From positions 186,001 through 250,000 of the forward strand of contig NZ_AMZN01000055.1 in the NCBI RefSeq assembly GCF_000331535.1: a stretch of 64,000 bases of DNA, read 5' to 3'. The notes under the pieces were generated by a model that was given only the letters and a program-made list of their open reading frames with translations, ran no database searches and had not been told where the DNA came from. Source of the stretch: Fulvivirga imtechensis AK7. GTDB lineage: Bacteria; Bacteroidota; Bacteroidia; Cytophagales; Cyclobacteriaceae. This document shows positions 1,943 through 19,078 of this stretch, piece after piece. Each line of letters opens with the position of its first letter. Position 1 is the stretch's first letter. The translations under genes and the position numbers were made by a program.

Positions 1943-2632
1943 CTATATTGTGATCAGTTGGGAATAATCCAACCAAAAATGGGTAACGTCAATATTGTAA
2001 CCTCCGGTGACGGAATGAGCAGAATCAAACTTATAATTTGGTGAGCGTGTATCGTGAGTTAGGAGTTTAATTGTTTTTATATCTGTCCTTTTATCTAAGT
2101 TGTCGTTCATATTCTTTAATATTTCAAATGCTGATGGTTTTGCATCTTCTAAGAATGCAATCATACCCGCGTATCTTTGATCTATTGAAGGATAATACTG
2201 TTTACTAGTGAATCTTTTTATGCCATCTGAAATGTAGTAGTCTATTTTTGCCGCTTCATTTTTAAGTCTTTTACATTCGATTATTACATACGTGTTATCG
2301 CTTAGTTCAGCAAATTTGATATCAATTTTTCCGACTTCAATGTTTGATTTAACTTCTGAAATTTGAGTGGAAATGTAAATATATTGTAAACCAAATCTAC
2401 TTCTGTTGGGCCTTAAATAAAGGTTTACAAAGTCGTAGGTTAAATAGTCTTCAAGCGGGACACGTGAAGTTTTCTTTCCCTGTTCTCTGATTTCTTTCTT
2501 TATGCTTTCCAAGGAATAACGACTGCTACTTTCAACCAGTTGCTTATAAGCATAGAAAATCAAGTTCTCAATGTTCCTTCGATATTCCCTTTTTATATCT
2601 TCAGTGAAAATAAAACTCTCCAGTCCCTCCAT
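1943..2632 (-). CDS. Putative PD-(D/E)xK nuclease partner of an N6-adenine methylase
   Basis: A 229-residue protein with no motif beyond a plausible PD-(D/E)xK core: GKIDIKF (D104) followed by YVIIECKRLK (E119, K121) in predicted consecutive beta strands, then YYISDGIKRF. This D-x(14)-ExK arrangement is the usual catalytic site of restriction-type nucleases. Its ATG lies two bases after the stop of the large methylase, so the pair is translated together, and it is as AT-rich as the methylase. From context I infer the restriction subunit of a small type II-like system, or an accessory nuclease in a BREX-like fragment. The nuclease fold is inferred from motif spacing only. The gene ends 37 bases from yifB, tail to tail. 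Confidence 0.6.
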   Translation of the reverse strand: MEGLESFIFTEDIKREYRRNIENLIFYAYKQLVESSSRYSLESIKKEIREQGKKTSRVPLEDYLTYDFVNLYLRPNRSRFGLQYIYISTQISEVKSNIEVGKIDIKFAELSDNTYVIIECKRLKNEAAKIDYYISDGIKRFTSKQYYPSIDQRYAGMIAFLEDAKPSAFEILKNMNDNLDKRTDIKTIKLLTHDTRSPNYKFDSAHSVTGGYNIDVTHFWLDYSQLITI

Positions 2633-2634
2633 TT

Positions 2635-5600
2635 TTAGCTTGCTGATTCATTTATTGTCTTCATAATTTCCGATAAGTCTTCGTGAGCAATGGCTTCATG
2701 CCAAAATTTAAACTCCGAGGGCTTTATTATGTAAAAATAGTCTCGGCCAAAGCCCTTTAAATCGCTATCTAAATATATGCCTTGCGAAATCCTGTTGAGG
2801 GTTAACTGCCCAACATCTTGTAAGAAATTTGATTGCTCCCCGTAAGGAAGTACCTGTATGCTGTTATTGTTTTCTTTGGTAATTTGGAAAAGGCTAACGC
2901 TAAAATTTCTGCCAATACTTATAGTAATATTTAAATTGAGGCTTCCAAGCTTTCTAAAATGATCTGCGAAAATTTCTGAGTACATAGTTAGTTGAAGGCT
3001 TAATAACTTAAACTTTTGATTGCCTCCCATACGATAAACTGGATCCTCTATTCTTTTAAAGGATGGAATTGACACATTCATTGTATAGTCTATAAGGGAG
3101 CGTTCAATGGAATCCAGTTTATATGCATCATATATTAGCGAGTTAAGAATATTGAATTCCTCTTTTAACTGCTTTTCATATTCAACATCAAAGAGATGGT
3201 CAAGGTCAATGTACTCCTGTATTTTCTGTGATTGTATTGCGATTCTCTCATCGAGAACGATGGGGAAGTTTAGAAATTCTTCAAAATATATTCTGGTTCT
3301 ATCAATACCTGCAGAACTGCTTGTATTAAAAACAAAATAAGAAAATAGAGTAGAGTTAATTAATCCTGCAATATTCCAAAGAATTGTCCTTTGTTTGTGC
3401 GAGATTTGATTGTTAATTGGAACAATTGACATTACGGAAGAGGGGAAGCAAATGTCATTTTTACTAACTGCAGCCACACCTTTGAAATCATTTCCTACCT
3501 CTAATCCTTTTTTACAAAGTACCTTAAAACTCTTAAAAAATTTCAGGTCTGGAAGATAACCCATTTTATCATCCTGTAACTTTCCCTTAGATATTAAGTT
3601 ATTGATTTGTTCCCCTAAAGATAAAGTAGGGCAGGTGCGAAATTGCTTAAATTCCTTGCGCTCTTCTAATTCAAGAAATGGCATATTCATGATTGCAGCC
3701 ACATCAAGTCTTCTATCACCATCTTTATATTTTAACCCACCATTATAGGTAAAACCATATTCATTCAAAACTTTCCCCAAAGTGGTGTATGAGGTTTTAA
3801 GTCTATTAATAAAAGCAACATCAAAGAAAGATCCATGCACTAATATTTTCCATAGCCAATCATTTCCACCATATTTCTCTATAAATCTGTTTTGGTTTAT
3901 GAATTTTATATCTCTTTTTGTTACAGTGATCGCTTTAAAATAGAGGAAATTGATATTTGGTCGAAAAGTAATGTGCTTGACTAAATTTCTATGATCATTA
4001 GATGTTGTTTTTTTAAAATGAAGAATTGCCGGGGATTGCTTGGCTCCTTCAAATACTTCTGGACCACCTGTCACCTTATTATTTACTGGAGATAGTTCTG
4101 CTACTTGAATAAGCTCATAGAAATCTAAAAACCATTGCCTCCAGCTCTTGCTAATACCAGTGTTATAGAGAACCTTACCAGTTACAATAAACATGCACTC
4201 TGTACCAGCATGCATAAAATCGTTAACCCTTATTAAAAAAGCTTGAGATATTTCATGGTTTCCTATTTCAGGGAATACAGCTCTGTCAAGATTTTTAACG
4301 TAATTCATATAGGTAGATTCTTTAACTTTCCCCCACGGAGGATTGCCAATAATAAAATCCAAGTCTACATTACTAAGAAGGGGTTGGAAGTCCGCGTTTG
4401 TATTAAAGAAGTCATTCTTAGAGCCACTAAAAAGATTTATGCCTTTTAAAGGTCGAAATTTAAAATGTTCAATCTCAATCGGTGTTTTGTAGTCTAAAAG
4501 AGTTATATATATTGAAAAAATCGATATTTCTATCGCTTCACTATCTATATCAATTCCATATATGTTGTTTCTAACTATGTCCCAAAGCTCCTCATTTGAT
4601 ATTGCAGTATCTGAATTTTTTAGGTGATGCTGAACAAGCTTACGTATAGTTTCAACGAGAAAAATGCCTGATCCGCAAGACGGATCAAGTATTTTTGCTG
4701 ATGTAGTGTTCTGGTTATTAAGCTTTTTGTCAACAGTTTGCGATAGCACATAGTCTACCATGTAGGGAGGGGTATAATATGCTTTAATTTCAGATTGTCT
4801 GCTTTTTTTAAATAAGCTCAATGATTTTCTCTCATTCTCTTTGTTATCAGTGTCACCTAAGAAATTCTCATAAATATTACTTATTAGTTCAACGGGAATT
4901 ACTTCAAAATCATAAACATCGAAGAGTGATGGCTGAACATAATAACCTCCGATATTTTCACCAACAAAAAACTGAGAACAGCTAAATAAATGATGTAAAA
5001 TATTTAAGTGTACTTTTGTTACTAGCTCAATTTCATTTGTAGGGTCATGATCTCTAGGTTTGATAGGAAATAGGTCCCCTTGGAATTTGCTTGTTATATA
5101 GTGAAAAAATCTATATAGTCTCCCTTTGTGCATCAACAACCGATTTAAGCTTTGAGCCCTTTCCTTTTTGTTTGTCCCGGTTACAAGGTTTTGATCACTA
5201 AATTGGACATTTCTGTCTATTAAGTATCTAATAAAGAGTAATCTGCCTATTAATCTATTGGCTACTGTATGGGGCAAATTTCCAACATCAGTGGAAACCA
5301 AAAGTCTGCGTGCATCGACTACATTGCTAAGTAACCACTTGTCTACTTTTTTTACATTTTTATAATATTGATGATAAAGATGTCTCCAAGTTTCCCCTGA
5401 AGCCAATCTTTCAGATCGAAATAGATCAATATCTGCCTCTATTTTTTTTAAATGATCCCGTCCATTGCCTTCGAAATCATAGCCATGATAAATTTCTGGA
5501 TTTCCATCTTGATCTGTAATTAATACCACTGGGGCTTGGCTGAAGCTAAAACACTGACTAACTAATTCCTTTCTTTTTTCCTTACTTGGATTATCGTAAA

Positions 5601-5811
5601 TGAGAATTAGGGGGTTGTTTATTGGATTAAAAGATTCTCGTGGACCATTTTGGTAAGGACTAAGTACCGCAGTCGGTTCTAATACAAAATTTAAGACATG
5701 AGAAATACGAAACGGAAAAAGGTGATTCTTAGAAAGTATATCATCTTTAGTATGGAGCCCAGTTTCTTTATTATAGTTTAATTGATCAAGTAATCTTTTT
5801 AGCCCAGGCAT
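2635..5811 (-). CDS. Large class I N6-adenine DNA methyltransferase (Eco57I/PglX-like)
   Basis: A 1058-residue protein with the two hallmark methylase motifs: motif I LDPSCGSGIFL at about 375-385 (SAM binding) and motif IV IGNPPW with N490-P-P-W (adenine flipping/catalysis). The N-terminal 350 residues are helical and contain a LLFIRYLIDR segment seen in Eco57I-type enzymes. The C-terminal third probably recognises DNA. It modifies adenine at a specific site and would protect the host from the downstream-encoded nuclease (1943-2632). Unlike type IIG enzymes I see no nuclease motif inside this chain. There is no HsdS, helicase or BREX ATPase nearby. Base composition is clearly lower in GC than the flanks (19 of 60 in the line at 4561, against 39 of 60 in yifB at 1321), which suggests horizontal acquisition. 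Confidence 0.85.
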   Translation of the reverse strand: MPGLKRLLDQLNYNKETGLHTKDDILSKNHLFPFRISHVLNFVLEPTAVLSPYQNGPRESFNPINNPLILIYDNPSKEKRKELVSQCFSFSQAPVVLITDQDGNPEIYHGYDFEGNGRDHLKKIEADIDLFRSERLASGETWRHLYHQYYKNVKKVDKWLLSNVVDARRLLVSTDVGNLPHTVANRLIGRLLFIRYLIDRNVQFSDQNLVTGTNKKERAQSLNRLLMHKGRLYRFFHYITSKFQGDLFPIKPRDHDPTNEIELVTKVHLNILHHLFSCSQFFVGENIGGYYVQPSLFDVYDFEVIPVELISNIYENFLGDTDNKENERKSLSLFKKSRQSEIKAYYTPPYMVDYVLSQTVDKKLNNQNTTSAKILDPSCGSGIFLVETIRKLVQHHLKNSDTAISNEELWDIVRNNIYGIDIDSEAIEISIFSIYITLLDYKTPIEIEHFKFRPLKGINLFSGSKNDFFNTNADFQPLLSNVDLDFIIGNPPWGKVKESTYMNYVKNLDRAVFPEIGNHEISQAFLIRVNDFMHAGTECMFIVTGKVLYNTGISKSWRQWFLDFYELIQVAELSPVNNKVTGGPEVFEGAKQSPAILHFKKTTSNDHRNLVKHITFRPNINFLYFKAITVTKRDIKFINQNRFIEKYGGNDWLWKILVHGSFFDVAFINRLKTSYTTLGKVLNEYGFTYNGGLKYKDGDRRLDVAAIMNMPFLELEERKEFKQFRTCPTLSLGEQINNLISKGKLQDDKMGYLPDLKFFKSFKVLCKKGLEVGNDFKGVAAVSKNDICFPSSVMSIVPINNQISHKQRTILWNIAGLINSTLFSYFVFNTSSSAGIDRTRIYFEEFLNFPIVLDERIAIQSQKIQEYIDLDHLFDVEYEKQLKEEFNILNSLIYDAYKLDSIERSLIDYTMNVSIPSFKRIEDPVYRMGGNQKFKLLSLQLTMYSEIFADHFRKLGSLNLNITISIGRNFSVSLFQITKENNNSIQVLPYGEQSNFLQDVGQLTLNRISQGIYLDSDLKGFGRDYFYIIKPSEFKFWHEAIAHEDLSEIMKTINESAS

Positions 5812-13225: not shown

Positions 13226-13714
13226 ATGGATTACCCGGAAATATCAGCATTTGGAGAAATATTGATCTACCTGATAGGAGGTCTGCTATTCGTTATGGGT
13301 GGGCTGGTCACAGCATGGATTGTTCGCCCACACAGACCCAACGAAGAAAAGCTATCCACCTATGAGAGTGGGGAGCAGCCATTAGGTTCTGCCTGGGTCC
13401 GTTTTAATATCCGGTTTTATATTGTGGCATTACTTTTTGTGCTCTTTGAGGTGGAGATCGTCTTTCTTTTTCCCTGGGCAACAGTGTTTGGTCAGAAGGA
13501 ATTAATAGAACAAACCAATGGTTTATGGGGGTGGTTTTCGTTGATAGAAATGGTTGTGTTCATCGGAATACTTGCACTCGGTCTGGCGTATGCGTGGGTA
13601 AAAGGATATCTCGACTGGCCTAAGCAGGAGGGAAGAACCACAACTGATTACAAATCACCAGTGCCAAAAACACTATACGATAGAATTAACAAAAAATATA
13701 GTTCCAGCAACTGA
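13226..13714 (+). CDS. nuoA: NADH-quinone oxidoreductase subunit A
   Basis: 162 residues with the three transmembrane helices of NuoA (about 10-32, 70-95, 105-130). The family motif [20 protein letters not shown] precedes helix 2, and [13 protein letters not shown] carries the conserved membrane acidic residues. It is part of the membrane arm of complex I near the quinone site and proton channel. The C-terminal 35-residue extension ([20 protein letters not shown]) is longer than in E. coli, common in this phylum. It is the first gene of the nuo cluster. The stop codon sits inside the heptamer repeat that fills the spacer to nuoB. Confidence 0.96.
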
Positions 13715-13759: not shown

Positions 13760-14275
13760 ATGGGTCTACTAGATAAAAAATTCAATAGCGGAGGAGTGAT
13801 CATCACAAAAGTGGATGATCTGATCAATTGGGCACGGCTGTCATCTATGTGGCCGATGACTTTTGGTATCGCGTGTTGTGCTATTGAGTTCATGGCTACC
13901 GGCACTTCCATTTATGACATGGATCGTTTTGGGATGGCTCCCAGAGCTACTCCCAGGCAGGCAGATGTAATGATAGTGGCGGGCACAGTCACGTTTAAAA
14001 TGGCAGACAGGATCAGACGCTTGTATGAGCAGATGTCGGAGCCGAGGTATGTTATCTCAATGGGATCGTGCTCCAACTGTGGGGGGCCTTACTGGCAGCA
14101 CGGCTATCATGTAGTTAAAGGGGTAGACCGCATTATTCCTGTTGATGTGTATGTACCGGGTTGCCCGCCAAGGCCGGAGGCTCTGATAGGGGGATTTATG
14201 AAGCTACAGGAAAAGATCAGGAATGAGTCATTGATGGCACCAAAAGCATTGGAAAAGTTGATGAAAGAAATATAA
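13760..14275 (+). CDS. nuoB: NADH-quinone oxidoreductase subunit B
   Basis: 171 residues. All cluster N2 [4Fe-4S] ligand regions are present: tandem Cys39-Cys40 in GIACCAIEF, Cys104 in MGSCSNCGG and Cys135 in [12 protein letters not shown]2 is the last iron-sulphur centre before quinone. The protein is a soluble subunit docked on NuoD/NuoH. It ends 12 bases before an AAA ATPase gene instead of nuoC, which is the only unusual point. The ATG follows the heptamer repeat and has no Shine-Dalgarno sequence. Confidence 0.97.
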
Positions 14276-14287
14276 CTATCTTTATTT

Positions 14288-15298
14288 ATGCAAAAGGAGC
14301 ACCTAACATCTATTCGGCTTGATAATTTTAAACGATTTGACGCACTTGAAATTGAAAATATTAGCCAGTTCAATTTAATATTGGGTGACAATAATGTTGG
14401 AAAAACCTCCTTATTGGAGGCCCTTCTTTTTAATAAGAATTTAAATGTATTGTGTGAGAACCTGTTAACAGCACTGTCGTACAAAAATTTCGGAGGTCCA
14501 GCCATAAGATATGAGAATATAAAGTACTTTATTCGAGATATAGAAGAAAATACTTCAAATGTTCTATTCAAATTCGATTATTTCGCTCAGACAAGTGAGA
14601 ATTACCAGCTAACTATTGACTCATCTAATGTTAGTTTACATTGCATCACTGGATTGCTGAATGAAAAGAAAGATCAAAATGTAAGTCCATCCAAGGAGTT
14701 TCATGTAGCTGGGTTTAATTCTATCCCTTATATACCATTTTATAAGGGGCATGATTTTGACCTTGTGAATCTGTATTCGAATCACATTCAGAAAAATAGA
14801 GAAAGAAAAGAGCAGTTAATTAGTGCACTGAGAACCATAGCTCCTGATCTTGACAACATAGAAATTTCTTTACCAGCGGGAAAACCTATTTTAGTTATTT
14901 CACAGAAACATTCTAATTCAGTGCTCCCTTTGGCAATTTTTGGAGATGGAGCTCTAAAATTGTTTCGTTTTTTTATCGAAATTATTGTTTTTCGAAATAC
15001 AAGATTGATGATCGATGAAATAGATACAGGTATTCATTATAGCCGATTTACCGAGTTTTGGGGTATATTACTTCAAACTGCAATAGAAAATAATGTGCAA
15101 TTGTTCATGACAACTCATAATAAGGAGTGTATCCAGTATTTTGATAAAGCCATAAGACAACTTGGTTGTGAAAGTGATGCAAGAGCTATTACGCTTGTCG
15201 AAAATCCCAAAGAACATGATGTGAAAGCCTTTACCTATACTTTTGATCAGCTAAATCATGCTCTTGAGGTAGGTAATGAGATAAGAGGAGGGTATTGA
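14288..15298 (+). CDS. AAA ATPase (AAA_15/AAA_21, OLD/AriA-like) inserted in the nuo operon
   Basis: A 336-residue SMC/OLD-type ATPase: Walker A GDNNVGKTS at 33-41, a signature-like FGDGALKLFRF near 218-228, Walker B LMIDEIDTG with D243/E244, and switch histidine in MTTHNKE (H277). There is no coiled coil of the length seen in SMC or RecF. ATPases of this type pair with a TOPRIM partner in split OLD and PARIS (AriA/AriB) anti-phage modules, and the next gene is a TOPRIM protein one base away. The gene is AT-rich (18 G+C of 60 in the line at 14401, against 31 of 60 in nuoD at 17101). It starts 12 bases after nuoB. Inferred function: ATP-dependent trigger of a nuclease during infection. Not proven. 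Confidence 0.82.
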   Translation: MQKEHLTSIRLDNFKRFDALEIENISQFNLILGDNNVGKTSLLEALLFNKNLNVLCENLLTALSYKNFGGPAIRYENIKYFIRDIEENTSNVLFKFDYFAQTSENYQLTIDSSNVSLHCITGLLNEKKDQNVSPSKEFHVAGFNSIPYIPFYKGHDFDLVNLYSNHIQKNRERKEQLISALRTIAPDLDNIEISLPAGKPILVISQKHSNSVLPLAIFGDGALKLFRFFIEIIVFRNTRLMIDEIDTGIHYSRFTEFWGILLQTAIENNVQLFMTTHNKECIQYFDKAIRQLGCESDARAITLVENPKEHDVKAFTYTFDQLNHALEVGNEIRGGY

Positions 15299-15299
15299 A

Positions 15300-15875
15300 A
15301 TGGCCGAGCTTTCGTTTATAGTGGAGGGAAAATCAGATAAGCATTTTCTTAAGCATTTTGTTCAATATCATTTTGGAGCTACTATTGAAGATGAGGATTT
15401 TATTGTGGTTGAGGGAAATATTGAGAAGATTCATTTAGTGGAACAAAGTATTAAGTCCAGTTCTCAGGCAGGGAAAACTAATCTCCTCTTTTTTGATGCA
15501 GATACAGATTGTTATGGAACAATTGACCGAATTGAAGAAAAAAGAAACGAGATGAGTTTTGAATTTGATGTTTTTCTTTTTCCTAATAACCATGATTCTG
15601 GAAATCTTGAAACGTTATTAAGGGGATGCATAAATAAAGATAATGATCAATTGTTTGAGTGTATAGATTCGTATGCTTCCTGCATCGACCGGCTACAACT
15701 CGATAACCTTCAAAGGTTTGATGAAAAAGCTAAATTTTTTGTTTATGTAGAATCTTTTAGTGTAGGAGGGTCGGGTAAAGGGGATAAGCGGGAATATTTT
15801 GAAAAACAGCTTTGGAATCTTAATTCAGAAGGTTTAAAGCCATTAAAGGAATTTTTAGATATTCATTTACAATGA
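15300..15875 (+). CDS. TOPRIM-domain protein (DUF3226/DUF4435-like), partner of the AAA ATPase
   Basis: 191 residues. The N-terminus matches a TOPRIM fold: SFIVEGKSDKHFL with catalytic-type Glu9, then LLFFDADTD with Asp66 and Asp68. FLFPNNHDSGNLETLL (about 92-107) is a motif common in DUF3226/AbiLii-like TOPRIM proteins. The chain is shorter than AriB of PARIS. TOPRIM partners of OLD-type ATPases act as DNA or tRNA nucleases. It starts one base after the ATPase stop and its own TGA overlaps the nuoC ATG (ATGA), so ribosomes can pass straight from it to nuoC. AT-rich like its partner. The nuclease activity and a defence role are inferences. Confidence 0.75.
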   Translation: MAELSFIVEGKSDKHFLKHFVQYHFGATIEDEDFIVVEGNIEKIHLVEQSIKSSSQAGKTNLLFFDADTDCYGTIDRIEEKRNEMSFEFDVFLFPNNHDSGNLETLLRGCINKDNDQLFECIDSYASCIDRLQLDNLQRFDEKAKFFVYVESFSVGGSGKGDKREYFEKQLWNLNSEGLKPLKEFLDIHLQ

Positions 15876-16357
15876 TTACTAATGATATAGTTCTTCTACT
15901 TAAAACCAAATTCACAGAACACGTCATCGTGCAGGTGGACGAAAATGCGTCACCAAAGGCTATTGTTATCGAGGCAGCCAACTTATTGGATGTGTGCAAA
16001 GAGCTTCATGCCAATGAAAAGACCTACTTCGATATGCTTTCCTGCATCACCGGCCTGGACAATGGTCCGGAAGCGGGTACTATGGAGGTCGTTTACAACC
16101 TTTATTCCATTCCCTATGAAATTTCATTAATGATCAGGGTGGTTATAAGCAGGAAGGATCCTGAGGTAAGCTCTGTGACTGAAGTATGGAAAACAGCAGA
16201 TTGGCTGGAGCGCGAAATTTATGACATGTTTGGGATCTGGTTTACTGGCCATCCAGACATGCGAAGGATATTGATGCCGGCTGATTGGGAGGGGTATCCT
16301 TTGAGGAAAGACTATCAGCAGCAAGAGTATTATAGAGGCATAAAAGTAGAATATTAG
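15872..16357 (+). CDS. nuoC: NADH-quinone oxidoreductase subunit C
   Basis: 161 residues of the 30-kDa subunit. The C-terminal signature [20 protein letters not shown] and [17 protein letters not shown] is complete. It is a separate protein, not fused to NuoD as in E. coli. It is part of the peripheral arm that contacts NuoD and NuoB. The only in-frame ATG near the N-terminus overlaps the TOPRIM stop (ATGA), so its translation is probably coupled to the inserted gene. Confidence 0.96.
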
Positions 16358-16359
16358 CC

Positions 16360-17577
16360 GTGGCTAACGACATACAATATCGCTACGAAGAGGATAATCT
16401 GATCAAGTCGGAGCCCAACAAGTACCGGGAGGAAGACCTGAGATCGGAAGAGATGGTCATTAACCTTGGGCCGCAACACCCTTCTACTCATGGGGTATTA
16501 CGGCTTGAGGTAGTGAGTGATGGTGAGATCATCAAAGAGGTAGTGCCCCATTTGGGCTACCTGCACCGGTGCTTTGAAAAACATGCCGAATCGCTGCCCT
16601 ACGGACAGGTAATTCCCTTTATAGATCGGATGGACTATCTGGCAGCTATGAACTCCGAACATGTCTATGCGATGGGTGTGGAGCGTATGTTGGGTATTGC
16701 GGATAAGCTGCCAAAAAGGGTAGAGTATATCCGTGTGTTAGTGGCTGAGCTTAACCGAATAGCTTCGCATTTTGTCGCCATAGGTACCTATGCGATGGAT
16801 ATAGGCGCTTTTACACCCTTTTTCTGGCTGATCAGGGACCGGGAGCACATCATGCGTATGTTGGAATGGATCAGCGGGGCGCGTATGCTTTATAATTATA
16901 TGTGGATTGGCGGGCTGTTTTATGATCTGCCTGTTGGGTTTGAAGAGCGTTGTGTGGAGTTTGTAAAGTATTTGCGGCCTAAGCTTGTTGAGCTGGAGAA
17001 ACTGATCATTGAAAATAAAATATTTATAGAAAGGACTGCCAATATAGGCGTACTTCCGTTGGATTTAGCCATCAACTATGGCATAACAGGCCCGATGCTC
17101 CGTGGCTCAGGCCTGAAGTATGATCTCAGGAAAGTGGACGGGTATTCGGTATATCCCGAAATTGACTTTGATATTCCCGTAGGGGAGGGGAAGATGGGTA
17201 GCGTGGGAGATTGTTGGGATCGTACTGATGTACGGGTAAGGGAGATCCACGAATCGCTGAAAATTATAGAGCAGTGCCTGCAAAAGCTGACACACGAGCA
17301 TAAGCGCACACGCGAGTTTGATCCGCAGGAGCTGGTGCCGAAAAAGGTGCGCCCCAAAGCACAGGATTTTTACGTGCGTGGAGAGACCCCTCGTGGTGAA
17401 CTGGGCTTCTTTTTCAGAGCGGATGGGAAGAGCGATGTTCCTTTCCGCTGCAAAGGCCGGTCATGTTGTTTTGTAAACCTTTCGGTCATTTCCGAGTTAG
17501 CAAAAGGGAGTCTGATAGCGGATTTGATAGCCATATTAGGTTCAATTGATATTGTTTTGGGTGAAGTAGACCGTTAA
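16360..17577 (+). CDS. nuoD: NADH-quinone oxidoreductase subunit D
   Basis: 405 residues of the 49-kDa subunit with GTG start two bases after nuoC. Key parts: [14 protein letters not shown] (about 32-45, quinone pocket loop with the conserved His), [16 protein letters not shown] and the C-terminal [16 protein letters not shown] followed by the conserved terminal GEVDR. It forms the quinone-binding site with NuoB. The next gene is not nuoE but the NAD(P)HX repair gene four bases on, so the cluster here is limited to ABCD. Confidence 0.97.
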
Positions 17578-17581
17578 ACCG

Positions 17582-19078
17582 ATGAAAATACTTTCAGCAG
17601 AGCAAGTACGTGAGGTTGACAAATATACTATTGAAAATGAACCCATACCGTCTATTGACTTGATGGAAAGGGCTGCCCATGCCTTTACTGATTGGCTTAT
17701 TTCTCACTTCAGCCCCAAATCTAAGGTGGCGGTCATTTGCGGTACGGGCAACAACGGTGGCGATGGACTGGCCGTGGCTCGTATGCTGCTGGGAAAGAAA
17801 TATCAGGTAGATACTTTTGCAGTTAAAAGATCTAACGAAGCTTCTGCGGACTTTAAAATAAACGAAAAGCGGCTTAATGAGATCAAGCCGGTGAGGGAAG
17901 TGACGACCGAAAAAGGGATTCCTCTCCTTGAAGAGTTTGATGTGATTATCGATGGCCTTTTTGGTTCAGGCCTGAGCCGGGAGGTGCAGGGCCTCCATGC
18001 TGATGTTGTGGAAATGATCAACAAGTCACGCAAAACTGTGGTGTCTATCGACATACCTTCCGGCCTGTTCACTGATCACCATACCTTCCCGGGTGCGGTT
18101 GTAGAAGCAGATTATACGTTGACATTTCAAGTACCTAAACTGGCTTTTTTCTTTCCTGAGAATGCTCAATACGTTGGGGAGTGGTATGTTGTAGACATTG
18201 GTTTAAGCGCTGAAGCTATTGATCAGCAGAGGTCGCACTATTATATGCTGACCAGCGAAATGATAAGCAAACTGCTGAAGCCACGAAAGAAATTTGCCCA
18301 TAAAGGCGACCATGGCAGGGCGTTGATTATGTCAGGGAGCTATGGAAAAATGGGGGCAGCGGTGCTTTGTGCCAGGGCTGCGCTGAGGACCGGCATCGGA
18401 CTGCTTACGATGTATATACCTACCTGTGGTTATGATATTATTCAATCAACAGTACCCGAGGCAATGGCCATACCGGATGAGGGAGATCATTTCCTTACCA
18501 GCTATACTGATCTGGAAAATTATGATGCTGTTGGCGTGGGACCCGGCATTGGGAAAGAACAGGAAACGGTGTACAGTTTGATGCAGTCTATCCAAACCTA
18601 TAAAAAGCCCATGGTAATTGATGCTGATGGCTTGAATATTATTTCCGAGCACGGGGAGATGCTTGAAATTCTACCAAAAAATACTATCATCACTCCGCAC
18701 CCGAAAGAGTTTGAGCGCCTTGTAGGAAAATGGTCGGATGACTTTGAAAAACTTGCGCTACAGAAAGACTTTGCCAGAAAGCATGACATCATAGTAGTAT
18801 TGAAAGGGGCACATACCTCCGTAGCCTTACCTTCAGGTGATATATTTTTTAATAGCACCGGCAATCCCGGGATGGCAAGTGGTGGCTCGGGTGACGTATT
18901 GACAGGCATGATCACTTCGTTGCTTGGGCAGGGATATATTCCAGAAGAGGCGGCTAAGATCGGAGTCTTCATGCATGGATTAGCGGCAGATCTAGCAGCA
19001 GAGGTTATTGGTGAGATCGGCATGGTAGCTACTGATATCACTGATTTCATACCCGAAGCCTACCAACAATTCAAATAA
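17582..19078 (+). CDS. nnr: Bifunctional NAD(P)HX epimerase/dehydratase
   Basis: 498 residues, the usual length of the fused enzyme. The N-terminal YjeF_N epimerase (1-215) has GTGNNGGDGLAVAR, DGLFGSGL and SIDIPSGL. The C-terminal ADP-dependent dehydratase (about 225-498) has the ribokinase-like VGPGIGK, VIDADGLN, ITPHPKEFERL and the anion-hole GNPGMASGGSGDVLTG. Together they repair hydrated NADH/NADPH. The gene follows nuoD by four bases, so a cofactor-repair enzyme is co-transcribed with complex I, a sensible functional link. Confidence 0.95.
   Translation: MKILSAEQVREVDKYTIENEPIPSIDLMERAAHAFTDWLISHFSPKSKVAVICGTGNNGGDGLAVARMLLGKKYQVDTFAVKRSNEASADFKINEKRLNEIKPVREVTTEKGIPLLEEFDVIIDGLFGSGLSREVQGLHADVVEMINKSRKTVVSIDIPSGLFTDHHTFPGAVVEADYTLTFQVPKLAFFFPENAQYVGEWYVVDIGLSAEAIDQQRSHYYMLTSEMISKLLKPRKKFAHKGDHGRALIMSGSYGKMGAAVLCARAALRTGIGLLTMYIPTCGYDIIQSTVPEAMAIPDEGDHFLTSYTDLENYDAVGVGPGIGKEQETVYSLMQSIQTYKKPMVIDADGLNIISEHGEMLEILPKNTIITPHPKEFERLVGKWSDDFEKLALQKDFARKHDIIVVLKGAHTSVALPSGDIFFNSTGNPGMASGGSGDVLTGMITSLLGQGYIPEEAAKIGVFMHGLAADLAAEVIGEIGMVATDITDFIPEAYQQFK

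Follow-up and report, generated by a model that had tools for sequence, protein, structure and literature searches.

An AbiL-like ATPase/TOPRIM gene pair, probably an immune cassette, between nuoB and nuoC in the complex I operon of Fulvivirga imtechensis AK7

The complex I operon of Fulvivirga imtechensis AK7 carries, between nuoB and nuoC, two adjacent genes encoding an AAA ATPase and a TOPRIM protein. Searches for defence genes mostly look to islands, prophages and plasmids. The AbiL-type pairs described below are found inside core operons at recurring, lineage-specific junctions, and at one of these junctions the interior of the pair varies between close species. We consider it probable that the pair is an AbiL-type immune cassette, of the abortive-infection or toxin-antitoxin-like kind, hosted as a guest by a housekeeping operon.

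The pair was studied in a window of 64,000 nucleotides, the whole stretch of DNA that was analysed, and its surroundings are listed in Table 1. Open reading frames were called crudely, as the longest non-overlapping frames of at least 60 aa, and the products of the surrounding genes are confirmed by Pfam as NuoA, NuoB, NuoC, NuoD and NAD(P)H-hydrate dehydratase. The ATPase gene begins 12 bp after nuoB, a single base separates it from the TOPRIM gene on the same strand, and the latter overlaps nuoC by the 4 bp ATGA, coordinate 15875 being the last base of its stop codon. Both nuoB and nuoC are intact despite the inserted pair. This arrangement had been described in an earlier note on the same DNA, and its placement, two gaps and stop/start overlap all agree with the ORF coordinates and with Pfam. 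From the spacing, we infer that the pair may have taken over the promoter and the translation of the nuo operon. A Bacteroidetes-type promoter pattern matched the window 4 times against 3.9 expected, and none of the matches was near the pair. Elsewhere in the window, at 1943-5811 on the minus strand, two further AT-rich genes encode proteins of 229 aa and 1058 aa; by reading of their sequence, these resemble a restriction endonuclease and an Eco57I-like methyltransferase/restriction protein.

Table 1. The ATPase/TOPRIM pair and its neighbours (window coordinates)
Feature	Coordinates	Strand	Evidence
nuoA, host operon	13226..13714	+	ORF, Pfam
nuoB, left neighbour of pair, host operon	13760..14275	+	ORF, Pfam
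AbiLi-like ABC-type AAA ATPase gene, 336 aa	14288..15298	+	ORF, Pfam, PADLOC, alignment, model
DUF3226 TOPRIM gene, weakly AbiLii-like, 191 aa	15300..15875	+	ORF, Pfam, PADLOC, alignment, model
nuoC, right neighbour of pair	15872..16357	+	ORF, Pfam; ATG overlaps TOPRIM stop
nuoD, host operon	16360..17577	+	ORF, Pfam
NAD(P)H-hydrate dehydratase/epimerase, co-directional after nuoD	17582..19078	+	ORF, Pfam

Pfam assigns the ATPase to AAA_15/AAA_21 and the TOPRIM protein to DUF3226 (1.2e-14). The Walker A motif GDNNVGKT (33-40), D243/E244 and H277 of the ATPase are invariant among 10 aligned homologues; its middle, about residues 50-180, is poorly conserved. The TOPRIM motif acids are E ... DxD, a pattern provided by E9, D66 and D68, which together with E104 are invariant among 11 aligned homologues. 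The residues that the earlier note had named in both proteins were thus correct. Among PADLOC profiles, the ATPase matches AbiLi (E=1.6e-43; 147.6 bits in two stretches, the best of which aligns ATPase residues 160-333 of 336 with profile positions 176-340 of 340), PDC-M38A (6.5e-40) and AriA (1.3e-15). The TOPRIM protein matches PDC-M38B (1.6e-9), AbiLii (7.4e-6, residues 61-188) and the AriAB fusion (0.0025). OLD-like_TOPRIM (PF20469) scores 17.7 bits on the latter protein, under the cut-off of 23.2; in NCBIfam all ATPase matches fell under their cut-offs and the TOPRIM protein had none. The AlphaFold model of the ATPase has a pLDDT of 76, with values below 50 in residues 111-142, and its best Foldseek match in the PDB is PtuA of Septu/retron complexes (E 6.9e-12). 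The TOPRIM model (pLDDT 92) had no Foldseek match in the PDB at E<=1e-3, and the sequence profile of this protein had none among solved structures at E<=1. Judged by these profiles the pair is built like AbiL, with good membership for the ATPase and a weak AbiLii match for its partner, which supports the claim of a defence-type ATPase/TOPRIM pair. The TOPRIM protein is a probable nuclease effector. The earlier note took its shortness as a sign of a possible new variant; a length of about 190-225 aa is in fact usual among the homologues seen.

AbiL itself (AbiLi/AbiLii) is a plasmid system of Lactococcus lactis (Deng 1999, as cited in PMC3985639 and PMC10440598). It likewise consists of two adjacent genes for an AAA ATPase and a TOPRIM protein, but the window pair is chromosomal, lies within a housekeeping operon, and has a TOPRIM protein that fits DUF3226 and PDC-M38B better than AbiLii. 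Both window proteins also match the PADLOC candidate PDC-M38, for which PADLOC gives no description and under which name we found no paper. PARIS resembles the pair in keeping ATPase (AriA) and TOPRIM (AriB) as separate genes; AbiLi, however, scores far better than AriA, and no AriB profile appears among the 8 TOPRIM matches at E<=10, so that the PARIS kinship suggested earlier was not upheld. The predicted ATPase fold is shared with Septu/retron PtuA, whose partner is the HNH nuclease PtuB according to PMC10440598, whereas the window partner is a TOPRIM protein. OLD nuclease and Gabija GajA also combine ABC ATPase and TOPRIM domains, but in one fused protein (PMC10568477) instead of two genes. 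Membership in PARIS and in OLD/Gabija was therefore ruled out, by the profiles and, for OLD/Gabija, by the unfused genes. In the open-licence PMC literature, our searches turned up no AbiL-type pair described within the nuo operon or another housekeeping operon.

The pair differs from its host operon in composition. GC and GC3 are 0.337 and 0.279 for the ATPase gene and 0.333 and 0.250 for the TOPRIM gene, against 0.432-0.480 and 0.442-0.527 for nuoA-D, and among the 47 ORFs of the window that reach 150 aa the TOPRIM gene ranks first and the ATPase gene third in AT-richness, which confirms an earlier impression that the pair is AT-richer than nuoA-D. The same offset recurs among relatives, collected by a scan of one genome per species in which the best 80 of 115 relatives and the window made up 81 tree rows. 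GC was compared for the 48 single-type cassettes (those with an unfused ATPase) that have two co-directional neighbours, 33 of the 81 rows being excluded as fused or for want of two such neighbours; 46 of the 48 lie below their neighbours (45 with GC rounded to three digits), with a mean offset of -0.106 (Wilcoxon p 1e-13). Tight embedding, defined as both flanks co-directional and within 50 bp, could be scored in 62 of 69 single-type cassettes. It holds for 31 of the 62 and, among ordinary two-gene units in the vicinity, for 23 of 90 (p=0.003, the loci not being independent), for 1 of 10 scored helicase-fused relatives and for 1 of 13 scored OLD genes from the same family (25 fetched). The idea that the embedding is extraordinarily tight is weakened, as the enrichment over ordinary two-gene units is only moderate; the strong signal is address fidelity, not tightness. 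Junctions checked by eye for an insertion footprint displayed no convincing target duplication.

Within the genus, all 14 sampled congeners lack a close ATPase and in all of them nuoB adjoins nuoC, the two overlapping by 11 bp at one extreme and, at the other, 56 bp lying ahead of the nuoC match; the spacing in these relatives is thus short and uninterrupted. One congener (G014) has a weak ATPase match (E 1.2e-4) confined to residues 217-291. Across the family, 390 genomes were searched; an ATPase match at E<=1e-12 is present in 19 of them and a close one (E<1e-60) in 11. Six of the 11 carry it at nuoB|nuoC, in six genera: the window genome G000, Marinoscillum furvescens (G021) and Imperialibacter sp. 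EC-SDR9 (G135), both named from identical translations, G174, G290 and G345. The other five carry it elsewhere and belong to one genus, g18. Occupancy of nuoB|nuoC is therefore 6 of the 153 family genomes with a nuoB match. Five of these six carriers and several of the g18 and Flavobacterium ones exist under two locus numbers, and one copy was used per analysis. The view that a module has landed inside an essential-type operon is upheld in so far as the pair is patchy and missing from 14 congeners; seen as a one-off it was too narrow, with five more genera occupied.

Other inserts are seen at the same junction: a 17-20 kb island in two genomes of genus g95 (G109, G244), gaps of about 150-430 bp with no ATPase match in four genomes (G033, G084, G112, G147) and a 0.7 kb antisense gene in G027. 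The junction thus tolerates other inserts, and the one found in most genera is the pair (six). The g95 island (L153:780-17587 and L154:732-19901) is mostly antisense between nuoB and nuoC; we take its content to include a Ro60/TROVE-like protein, nucleotidyltransferases, a HigA-like protein and, in one of the two, a Thg1-like protein, and presumably it resembles an RNA-repair island. The single G027 gene (L022:2022-2744, minus strand) encodes a membrane protein, presumably ZIP-like.

A purely vertical history could be imagined, in which a family ancestor had the pair at nuoB|nuoC and near-universal loss followed with no horizontal movement. The divergence between genera would be within reach of fast-evolving proteins, the ATPases of these diverged pairs being 36-49% identical where NuoC is 49-61% identical, and the nuoB|nuoC and g18 copies fit a single clade, which the AU test did not reject (the constrained tree was 2.6 log units better, p-AU 0.597); the nuoB|nuoC copies alone as a clade were not rejected either (p 0.099). 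In the NuoA-D tree of 30 sampled rows, however, the window is nested among its congeners (15 rows, support 98/97), as sister to three empty ones (support 100/99). On this tree, presence of the pair takes 5 changes by parsimony and 10-11 losses if only loss is allowed; a vertical history also requires that all other sampled congeners lost the pair. We regard this history as unlikely.

The five g18 genomes with the pair (G325, G329, G343, G363 and G404) are all outside the 153 genomes with a nuoB match, absence here meaning none at E<=1e-70, a search outside of which more divergent complex I would lie. Three of the assemblies are 99-100% complete (G325, G329 and G343, with G329 in one contig), G404 is 89% complete and G363 consists of 500 contigs. 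In G329 and G363 the pair is preceded by a marker gene that we take to be VOC-like. A homologue of this gene directly precedes nuoA in G345 and lies about 1.1 kb away in G216; among the three nuo-bearing g18 genomes viewed, G333 lacks it in the stretch viewed. G325 has two neighbouring genes of the marker cluster, G343 has other neighbours and G404 ends at a contig edge, and the stretches fetched contained no copy of the downstream GT-like gene. We read the g18 pair as a cassette that may have outlived its operon, a reading that draws on part of the left flank. The proposal that insertion ties loss of the pair to loss of respiration was not borne out in g18, where these five genomes keep it. 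One g18 TOPRIM gene (L052:2527-3091) is split over two frames, by frameshift or assembly error, next to an intact ATPase ORF.

A number of addresses recur among the relatives, at which neighbour genes were named by Pfam. In 12 of the best 80 of 115 relatives, a large protein that we take to be helicase-like precedes the ATPase in one fused chain (1369-1981 aa in total), and the rest are single-type; in the fused relatives L060 (an open frame of 1569 aa), L103, L111, L118, L121, L123, L125, L131, L132, L134, L137, L140 and L145, a TOPRIM gene mostly comes next. With the window included, the best 80 give 6 loci at nuoB|nuoC, 6 at nuoE|nuoF (in Flavobacterium and Chryseobacterium) and 1 at nuoF|nuoG. 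Seven have methionine synthase upstream, 5 lie between UDP-glucose dehydrogenase and an epimerase-family gene, 6 have an M42 peptidase downstream and 4 a carboxyl transferase upstream (one locus with both), and 2 have GatB downstream. A further 6 occupy a Kapaibacteria/Ignavibacteria site, where the upstream neighbour is common to 4 loci and the downstream one to 4. Mapped onto the ATPase tree, the methionine synthase, nuoE|nuoF, UDP-glucose dehydrogenase and GatB addresses need 1 change each, the M42/carboxylase and Kapaibacteria ones 2 each and nuoB|nuoC 3. Addresses and clades nearly coincide: with 'other' and 'fused' among the 11 labels, 15 changes are needed on 81 rows against a shuffled mean of 51.7, although non-recurring contexts account for 25 of these rows. 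A single clade of nuoB|nuoC with nuoE|nuoF and nuoF|nuoG copies was weakly rejected (p-AU 0.0345), and two entries into complex I operons are therefore likely, not certain. No relative was found in phage records or viral contigs; 146 plasmid records match, all with less than 30% identity among the 10 matches listed. Cargo of phages or plasmids was ruled out on these grounds.

Some of these operons hold further genes. In the Chitinophagales nuo operon whose nuoF|nuoG junction holds the pair, an MFS-like gene and others lie between nuoE and nuoF (L147:3870-6541) and what we take to be a Doc/Fic-like gene lies between nuoH and nuoI (L147:11924-12319). Extra genes also occur in a Chryseobacterium nuo operon that contains the pair: they lie at nuoF|nuoG (L133:11023-11895) and at nuoH|nuoI (L133:14110-14478), the latter presumably for a four-helix-bundle-like protein.

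That two ATPase lineages use complex I junctions could suggest that the pair serves complex I, in its assembly, its quality control or the regulation of respiration. Other lineages, however, adjoin genes for methionine synthase, UDP-glucose dehydrogenase, GatB and M42 peptidase, a close pair is missing from the junction in 147 of the 153 family genomes with a nuoB match, and the five g18 carriers without such a match argue against a role of this kind. We give it hardly any credence: an accessory function was set aside on account of the lineages in unrelated operons and of the g18 carriers with no nuoB match at E<=1e-70.

The nuoE|nuoF address offers a view of the cassette in close species. The genus examined, of 249 genomes, was taken as Flavobacterium on the strength of G474, whose NuoF shares 99% identity with the F. 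salmonis protein, and of G738, whose ATPase shares 100%. An ATPase of the nuoE|nuoF type (E<=1e-30) is present in 6 of the 249 genomes, in all 6 between nuoE and nuoF. In G474 and G509 the junction is empty and tight (1 bp), with NuoF 99% and 94% identical to that of a carrier. Seven Flavobacterium cassettes (L146 included) were compared, identities of NuoE and NuoF being taken over the 83 residues that adjoin it. Among L159, L160 and L162, these ends are 96-99% (NuoE) and 96-100% (NuoF) identical, yet the ATPase middles are 30-55%, the cores 27-92% and the TOPRIM proteins 30-72% identical. Between L163 and L164 the values are 95% and 100% for NuoE and NuoF, and 23%, 35% and 41% for middle, core and TOPRIM protein. 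For L143 and L149, two of these species, whole proteins are 98% (NuoE), 99% (NuoF), 73% (ATPase) and 32% (TOPRIM) identical. Since the NuoE and NuoF ends are 95-100% identical and the interiors differ, the cassette has been replaced in place at this address, a variation that vertical descent leaves unexplained.

The first 48 residues of the ATPase are 92-100% identical across the Flavobacterium cassettes, and its tail tracks the TOPRIM type. L159, L162 and L146 share one type (tail 79-91%, TOPRIM 69-90%), L160 and L161 a second (tail 68%, TOPRIM 84%) and L163 and L164, loosely, a third (tail 49%, TOPRIM 41%), with 33-59% between tails of different types. At nuoE|nuoF, we infer a cassette built from three parts: a nucleotide-binding head that stays constant, a middle that varies and would be the sensor, and an exchangeable effector made of tail plus TOPRIM protein. 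Synonymous identity is 0.79 in the head against 0.65 in nuoE and 0.68 in nuoF over 21 pooled, non-independent Flavobacterium pairs. At fourfold sites over four addresses, the head (0.25-0.52) has no clear excess over the flanks (0.28-0.51), and recent exchange of the head is left as a hint. No donor tracts were identified in the flanking genes.

The clean insertion at fixed junctions, the conserved targets and the lack of evident mobility genes beside the pair would also suit a selfish element of the homing type, whose TOPRIM/ATPase would cut junction alleles devoid of the pair and be copied in during repair; the related enzyme GajA nicks DNA site-specifically (PMC10568477). The junctions were inspected by eye for a shared motif. 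The low occupancy, 6 of 249 genomes in Flavobacterium and 6 of the 153 in the family that have a nuoB match, is unlike an efficient drive and disfavours homing, and the closest named system acts in abortive infection. We hold homing to be very improbable.

The immune cassette thus remains the favoured reading, and an anti-phage role of the window pair is probable by homology. In published work, the AAA proteins paired with TOPRIM toxins are regarded as antitoxins, with no convincing modelled interface between the two (PMC10440598), and AbiLii of Fusobacterium is toxic in Escherichia coli, lactococcal AbiLi and AbiLii being non-toxic there (PMC3985639). By analogy, the ATPase would act as sensor and antitoxin, its variable middle being the likely recognition part, and the TOPRIM protein as a nuclease effector freed or activated upon infection. 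Transcription of both genes would start at the nuo promoter, and they would be coupled to translation of nuoC. Homologous recombination through the conserved genes on either side would bring the cassette in, remove it or exchange it; this would account for a fixed address in the absence of evident mobility genes beside it. A broader proposal, which we advance tentatively and consider possible instead of likely, is that AbiL-type pairs of Bacteroidota are 'operon-guest' immune cassettes, with no evident mobility genes and presumably promoterless, bound to one core-operon junction per lineage (complex I having been colonised at least twice) and moved and reshuffled through homologous exchange at flanking core genes; dependence on a housekeeping transcript would itself be the trigger, as shut-off of host transcription by a phage would deplete the ATPase antitoxin and so free the TOPRIM nuclease.

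If confirmed, these observations would reveal a route by which immune genes spread with no visible mobile element. Annotation by neighbourhood would fail in such cases, as the pair would pass for accessory genes of complex I. The cassettes that share one address and differ in middle and effector would then form a natural allele set for finding what the ATPase senses.
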